Shown piece after piece: positions 13,913 to 17,755 of a stretch of 40,102 bases of DNA. This DNA is from Nitrososphaera sp. (lineage in GTDB: Archaea; Thermoproteota; Nitrososphaeria; Nitrososphaerales; Nitrososphaeraceae), in assembly GCA_023250885.1 (NCBI GenBank), contig JAHEZV010000004.1, positions 1 to 40,102 of the forward strand, given 5' to 3'. A program made the position numbers and the translations under genes. The stretch's first letter is position 1. Every line of letters starts with the position of its first letter. The notes below the pieces were generated by a model that saw only the letters and a list, made by a program, of their open reading frames with translations, was not told where the DNA came from and made no database searches.

Positions 13913-13974
13913 ACAGCCTATTTTCCTCCTTTTTATTATTTGAACAAGAACTACCGACAGGTATTGAAAAATGG

Positions 13975-14078
13975 GGCCTTCGGAGGGATTTGAACCCTCC
14001 TCAAGCGGTTTCTGCCGAAAAGTTTCTTGAGAAACCGGCCACAGCCGCCTATACTGACCAAGCTATACTACGAAGGCC
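13975..14078 (-). tRNA. tRNA-His (anticodon GUG) with an approx. 29-nt intron (about 14010..14038) at position 37/38; G-1 encoded
   Basis: Manual fold: acceptor GCCUUCG/CGAAGGC, D-arm GUAU/GUAU, anticodon stem GGCGG/CCGCU, loop CUGUGG|A, T-arm GAGGG-UUCAAAU-CCCUC, discriminator C, preceding G-1. Confidence 0.9.
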
Positions 14079-14189: not shown

Positions 14190-15755
14190 TTATTCGGTAG
14201 CCATGCGCACCAATTCAGAAATTTGCTTGCCTTTTCCCTGAGAAAGTGTGGATATGCCTCCAGTCAGACTTTCAGCGACAATGCCTTTCTGTGCAAGCAC
14301 TTGGGCAACTCTGAGCGAAGTATTTCCCATCATGCAAACGAGCAATGGCTTTGCATTATCTCCTCCCAATGCCTCATTCAATTCCTTTGGAATCTGTTGT
14401 GTCATCAAGAGTTGCTCTACCTCGCTGGCCTTTGGGACATAGATCTTGCTTTCATCAACACCTAGAGTCTTTGCGATCAGCTCTATTCCTTCCTTGCGCG
14501 GAGTATACATCGTGTGGATCCAGACAACTCTATCATAATTGCCAATGTTTGAGACAGCTTCATTCACAGGAACTTCCAGACGTTTCTGCTTTTGTCGCAT
14601 GGCTTCAAGGCTCTTTCTGTACTTTTGGATTCCATCCGCGATTATCACGACAAACTTGCCTGCACCGCCAAAGTTCGCCATCTGCATAACTGCGTAAAGC
14701 GCAATGGCGCTGCTCTCGCCCATGTCGTACCCTTTATCCACGAAGAACTTTAGCAGGCGTCTTGCCTGTCCAAAATCCACTTCGTGCTGTCCCGCGTACC
14801 GGTCAGGCTCGTAGAATTTCAAGCCCGAAGCCTTGCCCTTGGTCCTTATGCCTGCGACATCCTGATCTCCCAGCGGAAAGACCACGTGCACCGCCTTTTT
14901 GTCGTATTTCTCCATCATGTACCTGCTCAGGCCGCCCGACGTGCCACCCGTACCAAAAGTGCAGACAATTCTGAAATCTGCCAGAGAATGGCCTTGTTCG
15001 CGCAACTGCTGGTCCATCTCCGCGGCTGTCACGGTTCTGTGGGCTTCGATGTTCAGCTCGTTGTCGTACTGCTCCGGGCAGAAGCAGCCATAGATCCTTG
15101 CAAGAAGTTTTGCCAGGTTTATGATGTCCTGTTTCGCCAAGACTTCTTCCACCTCGGAACGTAATTTATCGAAAATGGTGGGATCGAACCCCAGTTCAGA
15201 GAGCTGCGCCCGTACATTCGCGGCGGTTGCCTTGGCCATTATAAGGTTCGGGTTGCTCTTCATTCCCGGAGCTGGGCAGATGTCCATGTCAAGATTGATT
15301 ATGCGCGTCTTCTCGTTTCTCAACTCTTCAAACACTCCTTCCTGGAGCTTTCTAGAAACAAGGGCAACGACGTCTAGGCCGAGATCGGTGACCTGCCCGA
15401 GGGCGATTCCAAAGTTGCCAGAAGTCGCTTCAAATATCGTCTGTCCACGCCTGAGCCTGCCTGTAGCAATTGCATCGTGAATTATCTGGACTGCAGGCCT
15501 CACTTTTATCGAGCCTCCAAGCACTTTCGATTCGAATTTGCCGAAAACCCGCAGATTTTTATCGGAAAGATCCGTGTTGAACACGCTGCTTGCACACTCT
15601 TTCAAGTCTTCAGTAATATCCTTCAGCGGCGTAGCATTGACAACTTTTGCTTCGCCCGGCTTTTCTCCCACATGAGGAACCTTGCTCCATATCTCACGTC
15701 GAAAGTGCTCGAGCAGAGAGTTGTCAACGTTGCTTCCATTATTCATTCCCTGCAT
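14190..15755 (-). CDS. Fold-type II PLP enzyme (cysteine synthase/CBS-like) fused to a C-terminal rhodanese-like domain
   Basis: GGSIKVRPA (PLP Lys), EATSGNFGIALG, FGTGGTSGG, GESSAIAL; C-terminal KPLLVCMMGNTSLRVAQVLAQKGIVAESLTGGI matches the rhodanese active-site pattern. Start chosen at MQGMNNG; ORF extends to 15884. Confidence 0.85.
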   Translation of the reverse strand: MQGMNNGSNVDNSLLEHFRREIWSKVPHVGEKPGEAKVVNATPLKDITEDLKECASSVFNTDLSDKNLRVFGKFESKVLGGSIKVRPAVQIIHDAIATGRLRRGQTIFEATSGNFGIALGQVTDLGLDVVALVSRKLQEGVFEELRNEKTRIINLDMDICPAPGMKSNPNLIMAKATAANVRAQLSELGFDPTIFDKLRSEVEEVLAKQDIINLAKLLARIYGCFCPEQYDNELNIEAHRTVTAAEMDQQLREQGHSLADFRIVCTFGTGGTSGGLSRYMMEKYDKKAVHVVFPLGDQDVAGIRTKGKASGLKFYEPDRYAGQHEVDFGQARRLLKFFVDKGYDMGESSAIALYAVMQMANFGGAGKFVVIIADGIQKYRKSLEAMRQKQKRLEVPVNEAVSNIGNYDRVVWIHTMYTPRKEGIELIAKTLGVDESKIYVPKASEVEQLLMTQQIPKELNEALGGDNAKPLLVCMMGNTSLRVAQVLAQKGIVAESLTGGISTLSQGKGKQISELVRMATE

Positions 15756-15813: not shown

Positions 15814-16630
15814 TCATTTGCCGGGCAGGATACCGACGCGGACTGTTTCAACGACCAGGCCTTCGAGCCGGCCCGCAAGACCATTGAGGCCTATTGAGTC
15901 ACCTGCAAGCTGGCTCATGACCACTCGGTTGCAGTCAAGCTTGTCTTCCCTCATTTTCGTCACTTCGCCATAGTCGACGTGCAGGTAAATGATTGTGGAA
16001 ACGCGCTGCTGCAAGTACGCCTTTGCAACGCGGTAGCCGCCGTTGATGCCTGCAGCGACCACCAGCGCCCATTGGCCGGCCCTTTTCTTTTCGCTGCCAA
16101 GACTCACCTGCACCTTGGTCGCTGCGTTCCTGAATTCCGGGATCTTGTTTATCGACCTGACAATGTCTGATACGTATTCCGCGCTGCCGGACTTGATCGC
16201 TTTTAGTATCACCGGCCGCATGTATTCGTCGCGTGGATGGTGTACGTTGACAAGCGACATGCCAAGCGCCTTTGCCGGCGCGACAACGTCGCCGTAAATG
16301 TCCGCGTGGTTGCGCGTCTCGACCCGCTCCTTGAGCTTCTCCACAGCCTGCCGGGCAATCTTTTTTTGGCACGCCATGCTCCACCATAAAGTCGACGTGC
16401 CTGTCAAACACGTAAAAATTGACAGAAGCCGCGCCAATCGGGTGGTGCGCAATAACTGCGTCGCGCCCAAGATGCCTTGTAAGCATCAGCTCTGCCGTCA
16501 CGATGTCGATTGCAATGAGCACCTTGTTGATGTTCCTGCCGTTTGCGTGTACGGCGGTGCCTGCCGGCATTTTCTTCAAGCCCGCCAGCTCGAGCCCGAC
16601 TTGTATTATCTTTCCAGTATCGGCGGCCAT
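15814..16630 (-). pseudogene. NIF3 (NGG1p-interacting factor 3)-like protein, interrupted by a single-base frameshift at an A7 run near 16363
   Basis: Frame 1 MAADTGKIIQVGLELAGLKKMPAGTAVHANGRNINKVLIAIDIVTAELML...IAHHPIGAAS...FMVEHGVPKK, then frame 2 IARQAVEKLKERVETRNHADIYGDVVAPAKALGMSLVNVHHPRDEYMRP...; span is 817 nt (3n+1). Confidence 0.75.
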
Positions 16631-16687
16631 GGCTACCAGCCTGTAAAGTGCAAAATTTAAATCTGATCTGCCATCTTGCAAAGAGGG

Positions 16688-17755
16688 ATGAGCTGCTCCG
16701 ACGAGCACGTTTCGCATTTGACTGACAATCTGATCCAGATAACTCCCCAGCTTAAGGCAAGGCTGCAGAAGGCAAAATACGGCGTCTACAACCACTCTGC
16801 AGTGGAGCTCTGTCACTGGACGAAAAAGTCGTTTGCAAACGAGGGCAACTGTTACAAGCACAAGTTCTACGGCATCTCGACCCACCAGTGCATGGAGATG
16901 ACACCGACCGCGATGAACTGCGAAAACAGGTGCATCTACTGCTGGCGCCCTACCGAATTTTACGATACGCTTGAAATGCCAGAGGAGCTTGTGGACGAGC
17001 CCGACGTGATAGTCGAGCAATTGATGGCCGAGCGGAAAAAGCTGATAAACGGCTATTACGGCAACGCAAAGAACGACAAGAAAAAACTTGACGAGTCCCT
17101 GCTTCCAGCCCATTACGCCATTTCGCTGTCAGGCGAGCCCACGATGTACCCCAAGCTGCCACAGCTCGTAAAATATCTGAAGTCGCTCAAAGCGACCAAG
17201 TCGATCTTCCTCGTGACAAACGGTCAGGAGCCGGACATGCTCAGGAGGCTTGCTGCTGAGGACGCTCTGCCCACACAGATCTACCTGTCGACCAACGCGT
17301 CGAACAAAAAAATGTTCCATCAGATCAACAGGCCTATGCACAAGGACGCGTGGGACCGGTGGTGGGAGAGCCTGCGGTTCCTTGCCACTGTCAACACGAG
17401 GACGGTGCTCCGCATGACGCTGATAAGGGGATATAACGACAACAACAATTTTGTCGGCGAGTTTGCGGAAATGATGGCGCGGGGCGACCCGCACTTTATC
17501 GAGCTGAAATCGTACATGCACATCGGCATGTCGAACCAGCGGCTGGAGCAGGACCACATGTTGGAGATGCACGAGGTGAGGGACTTTGCGACAAAATTGT
17601 GCGAAAAGATGCCCTCGTTCAAGGTAATGGACGAGAGCGAAATTTCAAGGATAGTAGTGCTTCAGAACCAGACACGCTACATCGATAGGTGGATCAAGGA
17701 ATACCTGACCGAAACCTATTACCCCCGCATGCTTGCTAAAACATTTCATGTATAG
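16688..17755 (+). CDS. taw1: tRNA 4-demethylwyosine synthase (radical SAM, TYW1/Taw1)
   Basis: TPTAMNCENRCIYCWRPTEFY, SLSGEPTMYPKLPQLVKYLK, VTNGQEPDML, LRMTLIRGYND. Confidence 0.93.
   Translation: MSCSDEHVSHLTDNLIQITPQLKARLQKAKYGVYNHSAVELCHWTKKSFANEGNCYKHKFYGISTHQCMEMTPTAMNCENRCIYCWRPTEFYDTLEMPEELVDEPDVIVEQLMAERKKLINGYYGNAKNDKKKLDESLLPAHYAISLSGEPTMYPKLPQLVKYLKSLKATKSIFLVTNGQEPDMLRRLAAEDALPTQIYLSTNASNKKMFHQINRPMHKDAWDRWWESLRFLATVNTRTVLRMTLIRGYNDNNNFVGEFAEMMARGDPHFIELKSYMHIGMSNQRLEQDHMLEMHEVRDFATKLCEKMPSFKVMDESEISRIVVLQNQTRYIDRWIKEYLTETYYPRMLAKTFHV

Follow-up and report, generated by a model that had tools for sequence, protein, structure and literature searches.

Described enzymes of related architecture

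Enzymes in which a PALP domain is joined to a rhodanese-like domain have been described in fungi. Aspergillomarasmine A synthetase carries the two domains in this order and has a C-x-x-G-x-T loop, and one of its structures (8h4q) contains O-phosphoserine. Fda4 of Fusarium, a PLP enzyme that likewise includes a rhodanese-like domain, catalyses the condensation of L-alanine and O-phosphoserine; O-phosphoserine is its preferred substrate, O-acetylserine yields only traces of product and serine is inactive (PMC12751119). Both known cases use O-phosphoserine and neither has been reported to make cysteine. O-phosphoserine routes to cysteine have been described in archaea, where the O-phosphoserine sulfhydrylase of A. 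pernix has Arg297 as the positively charged residue that recognises the phosphate, and the cysteine routes of many archaea have been stated to be unknown (PMC5120207).

The gene analysed here has the same domain order in an archaeon. It lies in a window (the whole stretch of DNA that we analysed) of 40,102 nucleotides, from a contig of Nitrososphaera sp. (JAHEZV010000004.1), and is complete (Table 1). It is not a chance reading frame, since a single homologue scan confirmed 97 homologues, of which 80 were kept (59-83% identity), and since 126 of 221 genomes of the window's order possess it.

Table 1. Features of the fusion gene and of its surroundings in the window
Feature	Coordinates	Strand	Description or basis
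PALP and rhodanese-like fusion gene, complete	14190..15755	-	521 aa + stop (stop inside the coordinates)
PALP catalytic domain (PF00291), ~residues 67-372	14640..15557	-	K84 PLP lysine; TSGNFG substrate loop, 111-116; GTGGT phosphate loop, 268-272
Family-specific segment, ~residues 157-206 (MDICPAPG... and insertion before CPEQYDN)	15138..15287	-	Alignment and invariant residues
C-terminal domain as modelled, residues 378-521, predicted rhodanese fold	14193..14624	-	Profile search, AlphaFold model, fold comparison
Conserved segment W412-x-H414-x-x-[YF]-x-P419, at the place of the canonical D-x-R	14499..14522	-	Sequence alignment
Active-site-like loop C474-M-M-G-N-T-S480	14316..14336	-	Alignment; compare GlpE CYHGNSS
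tRNA-Tyr (GTA)	13972-14077	-	29-base intron in the anticodon loop
Nif3/DUF34-like ORF	15814-17113	-	Assigned by eye; apparent frameshift
TYW1-like radical SAM gene	16676-17755	+	Wyosine_form (PF08608) and Radical_SAM matches

A divergent PALP domain

The hallmarks of fold-type II PLP enzymes claimed by the first-pass annotation for the N-terminal part were all located (GGSIKVR at residues 80-86, TSGNFG as tabulated, GTGGTSGG at 268-275), and the PF00291 match to the fusion protein is well over the cut-off (E 7.8e-25, 88.2 bits against 35). K84 and the GTGGT motif are invariant in an alignment of 90 sequences that includes divergent relatives. The protein nevertheless scores far below the cut-offs of the curated NCBIfam families: 94.5 bits against 344.15 for the cysKM model, and likewise under the cut-offs of the CysM and CysK models (TIGR01136, TIGR01138 and TIGR01139 being those tested), 92.1 against 349.95 for SbnA (TIGR03945), and 81 against 510.25 for CBS (TIGR01137). 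This places the domain in the beta-replacement branch, outside these curated families. In a maximum-likelihood tree, the PALP domains of the archaeal fusions formed a single clade with a support of 100/100 and a very long stem of 3.35 changes per column. The viral CysM-like genes, archaeal CysM and the E. coli CysK and CysM in the tree all fell outside it.

The fusion shares its PLP lysine motif and a GTGGT-type loop with O-phosphoserine sulfhydrylase and with CysM (cysteine synthase B). Its R304 lies within an invariant QDVAGIRT motif and aligns with an arginine of both E. coli CysM and archaeal CysM, whereas CysK lacks it; judging from the alignment, R304 may have an anion-binding role. The differences are considerable. 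Identity to E. coli CysK and CysM and to archaeal CysM is only 26-28%. In addition to its C-terminal domain, the fusion has an extra segment of ~45 residues relative to CysM-type enzymes (residues ~157-206, mostly missing in the three comparison proteins), and two cysteines are invariant, C160 within this segment and C226 just after it. All homologues covering the substrate loop have TSGNFG in place of TSGNTG, which suggests an altered substrate pocket.

The C-terminal domain is predicted to have a rhodanese fold

No member of the family that we scanned matches the Pfam Rhodanese model (PF00581), and a PF00581 search of the window's own genome did not return the fusion gene either; of the two Pfam assignments proposed for the protein from its motifs, only PALP was thus recovered. 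The rhodanese assignment relies on a PDB profile search and on fold comparison. A profile built from 41 domains (residues 378-521) had rhodanese proteins as its best five matches (E 2e-4 to 2e-3), all across the half of the domain that holds the loop. The AlphaFold2 model of the domain (pLDDT 86.5, pTM 0.81) gave rhodaneses as the leading Foldseek matches with a probability of 1.00 and a best E of 1.4e-4, at moderate TM-scores of ~0.5 to the query and up to ~0.70 to the target. A direct hhalign comparison between the domain and six rhodaneses told us little (probability 3%, against 0.7% for the control), probably because both alignments were shallow. Two other identities were considered, CARF_Card1 from weak Pfam matches (best 2e-4) and RadA from PDB profile matches, and the fold search supported neither.

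Conservation within the domain peaks at the loop. The pattern C474-x-x-G-x-T-S does not vary in any of the homologues that extend over it, and the 90-sequence alignment has Y407, W412, H414, P419, G432, L471, C474, G477, T479, S480, G491, G499 and G500 as the invariant residues of the domain; 4 of these fall in the 7 loop positions, as against 9 in the other ~130 residues. CMMGNTS fits the catalytic-type pattern C-x-x-G-x-[RST]-[ST]. It is without the arginine found in many rhodaneses, as is the CYHGNSS loop of E. coli GlpE, to which it aligns and whose MG1655 record is annotated as thiosulfate sulfurtransferase. The first-pass annotation had read VCMMGNTS followed by VESLTGGI; the former was found at residues 473-480, and the latter reads VAESLTGGI. 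Its claim of a C-terminal rhodanese-like domain with a catalytic-type cysteine is supported by the predicted fold and the invariant loop cysteine, and neither of the outcomes that it had named as counting against the claim, a lack of rhodanese-fold support or an inactive loop in all homologues, occurred.

It is in its first half that the domain is unusual. The single-domain rhodaneses GlpE (compared by sequence only), TT1651 (1wv9) and TVG0868615 (3gk5) resemble it in the predicted fold, and in a C-x-x-G-x-x-S type loop followed by a G-G segment. Two motifs of ordinary rhodaneses, D-x-R and G-H-I-x-G-A, are missing from the fusion, which has W-x-H and Y-x-P (W-x-H-x-x-[YF]-x-P) instead. Four of the invariant residues listed above (Y407, W412, H414 and P419) lie in the stretch of about 60 residues that had been taken for a linker, and in the model this stretch forms the first beta strand and the following helices of the C-terminal domain.

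Comparison of the whole protein with the fungal enzymes

In the full-length model (pLDDT 79) the relative placement of the domains is uncertain. Aspergillomarasmine A synthetase (8h4h and 8h4q) supplied all of its best four PDB matches (E 7.7e-18), superposed at an rmsd of ~13 A. Overall identity between the two proteins is ~19%. The aligned piece of the 8h4q sequence has SSGST as its substrate loop against TSGNFG in the archaeal fusion, so the archaeal and fungal proteins may not share a recent fusion event. The settings also differ: the fungal enzymes belong to secondary metabolism, where they attach amino acids (Asp, Ala), and the archaeal gene is widespread and outside any cluster. What aspergillomarasmine A synthetase and Fda4 add to O-phosphoserine is an amino acid and not sulfur, so the fusion of a rhodanese-like domain to a PALP domain is no proof, taken alone, of sulfur relay.

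Distribution, descent and gene neighbourhood

The survey of the order comprised 221 genomes at least 90% complete, and the fusion matches in it are nearly all full length. Two apparent exceptions without the C-terminal end (G586 and G581) were set aside, as both partial matches stop at contig ends. Named loci come from Nitrosopumilus, Nitrosarchaeum, Nitrosotalea and Nitrososphaera, together with related MAGs. The fusion appears to be conserved vertically, and in a deep family near the base of the clade (f62) it is found at 48-55% identity; this divergence and position suggest that it was inherited vertically and sometimes lost. Only one genome of Thermoproteota outside the order (G218) carries a homologue, with ~45% identity, which is split by contig ends and has the loop CIGGYTS. 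Full-length matches were found neither in plasmids nor in viral contigs, the latter giving only partial CysM-like matches; many IMG/VR contigs (L135-L192) encode CysM-like PALP proteins that match only the PALP part of the query. One record labelled as bacterial, a 'Phycisphaerae' contig (L054), carries the fusion with the gene order of Nitrosopumilus and is very probably archaeal contamination. A bacterial origin was rejected, as 148 other genomes of that phylum gave no match.

The neighbours of the fusion gene vary between lineages and we found no conserved operon partner, so operon logic was dropped as a functional clue. At Nitrosopumilus-type loci the neighbours encode an ASCH protein, TBP, a MoxR-like ATPase and another protein, none of which we read as a sulfur gene; a thaumarchaeal neighbourhood holding TBP has been reported to contain a gene labelled 'cysteine synthase' (PMC3349469), which fits these loci. 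In the window, the tRNA-Tyr gene lies just downstream of the fusion gene; it was missed by an intron-free scan and found when introns were allowed. The Nif3/DUF34-like ORF lies upstream on the same strand and has its N-terminal half in another frame, with an apparent frameshift near 16.4 kb; neither piece has a Pfam match, and either an assembly error or a broken gene would account for this.

Genome content and routes to cysteine

A stand-alone CysM-like gene (template from G029) was found in 181 of the 221 genomes. Both genes are present in 95 of them, 31 have the fusion as their sole recognisable cysteine-synthase-type gene, 86 have only CysM and 9 have neither, so that 212 possess at least one. 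The corresponding numbers in the largest family are 83, 24, 28 and at most 1. The complementarity of the two genes is weakly significant by a Fisher test that ignores shared ancestry (p = 0.004 for the order; p = 0.016 for the largest family, counting one genome with neither) and we regard it as suggestive. The fusion is not the sole cysteine-type PALP of the window's own genome, as we had considered, for a CysM-like gene, cut at a contig edge, is present there. Six genomes of families f64 and f66 that are >90% complete (G505-G508, G510 and G513) had neither gene at the thresholds used; genomes of this kind would have either another cysteine route or auxotrophy.

We inventoried the PALP genes of five fusion-only genomes (G108, G501, G192, G521 and G068), three of which are closed. 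In G108 and G501, every other PALP gene is of the threonine ammonia-lyase, threonine synthase or TrpB type; those of the remaining three were judged by size and motif only. In ten genomes, six of them fusion-only, neither serine acetyltransferase (CysE) nor SepCysS was found over the cut-off, and the transsulfuration family PF01053 had a strong full-length match only in G501, the others being short and weak. In 5 of the 6 fusion-only genomes probed no other route was found, so that the last step of cysteine synthesis has no recognisable candidate there besides the fusion. The absence of serine acetyltransferase favours O-phosphoserine or serine over O-acetylserine as substrate, and O-phosphoserine would be in line with the described archaeal routes. 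The genome content thus supports the involvement in cysteine or sulfur metabolism suggested by the first-pass annotation.

Proposed function and alternatives

Our preferred reading, which we hold tentatively and at a little under an even chance, is that the fusion is a divergent second cysteine-synthase-type enzyme, probably using O-phosphoserine, whose rhodanese-like domain holds or delivers sulfur. PLP would be carried on K84 of the PALP domain, where an activated serine, most likely O-phosphoserine, would bind and undergo beta-replacement via an aminoacrylate intermediate; attack by sulfur would then release L-cysteine. The sulfur, from thiosulfate, persulfide or sulfide, would be carried as a persulfide on C474, and the rhodanese-fold domain would supply or concentrate it for the PALP site. 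Direct hand-off, the idea with which the gene was first singled out, would be the weakest step of this mechanism, since the same domain is retained in the fungal relatives, for which no sulfur chemistry is known. It is rather doubtful that the fusion is a self-contained cysteine synthase which draws on sulfane sulfur (thiosulfate or persulfide) rather than free sulfide by means of its built-in rhodanese fold and is the sole cysteine-forming enzyme in those Nitrososphaerales that are devoid of CysM. The 86 CysM-only genomes, which manage without the fusion, count against this reading of a second cysteine synthase, and since a CysM-like gene is also present in 95 genomes with the fusion, the window's own among them, the fusion may have another function.

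One might argue that the PALP domain makes cysteine from free sulfide and that the rhodanese-like domain is only structural, or is a sensor of sulfide or persulfide that tunes activity. Regulatory C-termini are known on two-domain beta-replacement enzymes, such as the CBS domains of cystathionine beta-synthase, and CBS enzymes that have C-terminal domains are also among the matches of the full-length model; the threonine at the loop position of the arginine and the non-canonical first half of the domain point the same way. However, the concentration of invariant residues at the loop cysteine and its neighbours fits chemistry better than scaffolding, and we consider this explanation unlikely. 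The fungal precedent speaks for another one, in which the fusion couples O-phosphoserine to an amino acid or some other nucleophile, as do aspergillomarasmine A synthetase, Fda4 and SbnA, and has no role in cysteine synthesis. The closest full-length structural match, the condensation catalysed by Fda4 and the nearly equal NCBIfam scores for SbnA and CysK/M (92 and 94 bits) agree with it. Yet 31 genomes would then have no recognisable cysteine synthase, the gene is not surrounded by a biosynthetic cluster and its PALP loop differs from that of the synthetase, which makes such a function improbable.

The enzyme could also work in the direction of breakdown, as a cysteine desulfhydrase or as an enzyme that forms persulfide, with the rhodanese-like domain taking up the sulfur for use in tRNA thiolation or Fe-S assembly. 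It is common for rhodanese domains to accept sulfane sulfur, and the fusion protein has a weak similarity to mycobacterial Cds1 (E 3e-8). Here again, the same 31 genomes would be deprived of a synthase, and the genome pattern suggests an overlap with CysM, so that this last explanation appears very unlikely.

Significance

In the literature that we searched, which covers the field in part, we found no description of this archaeal PALP-rhodanese fusion. The gene had been put forward as a good candidate for new chemistry; its architecture has a precedent in aspergillomarasmine A synthetase and is therefore not of a new kind, whereas the archaeal clade appears to be undescribed, as do its distribution and likely role in cysteine supply. 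The fusion may be the cysteine-making route in dozens of related genomes without another recognisable enzyme. If some Nitrososphaerales genomes have no other cysteine synthase, annotation based on CysK and CysM would mistake these organisms for cysteine auxotrophs. A domain inside the synthase that donates sulfur would, if the proposed mechanism is true, explain how sulfur is used without the release of free sulfide.
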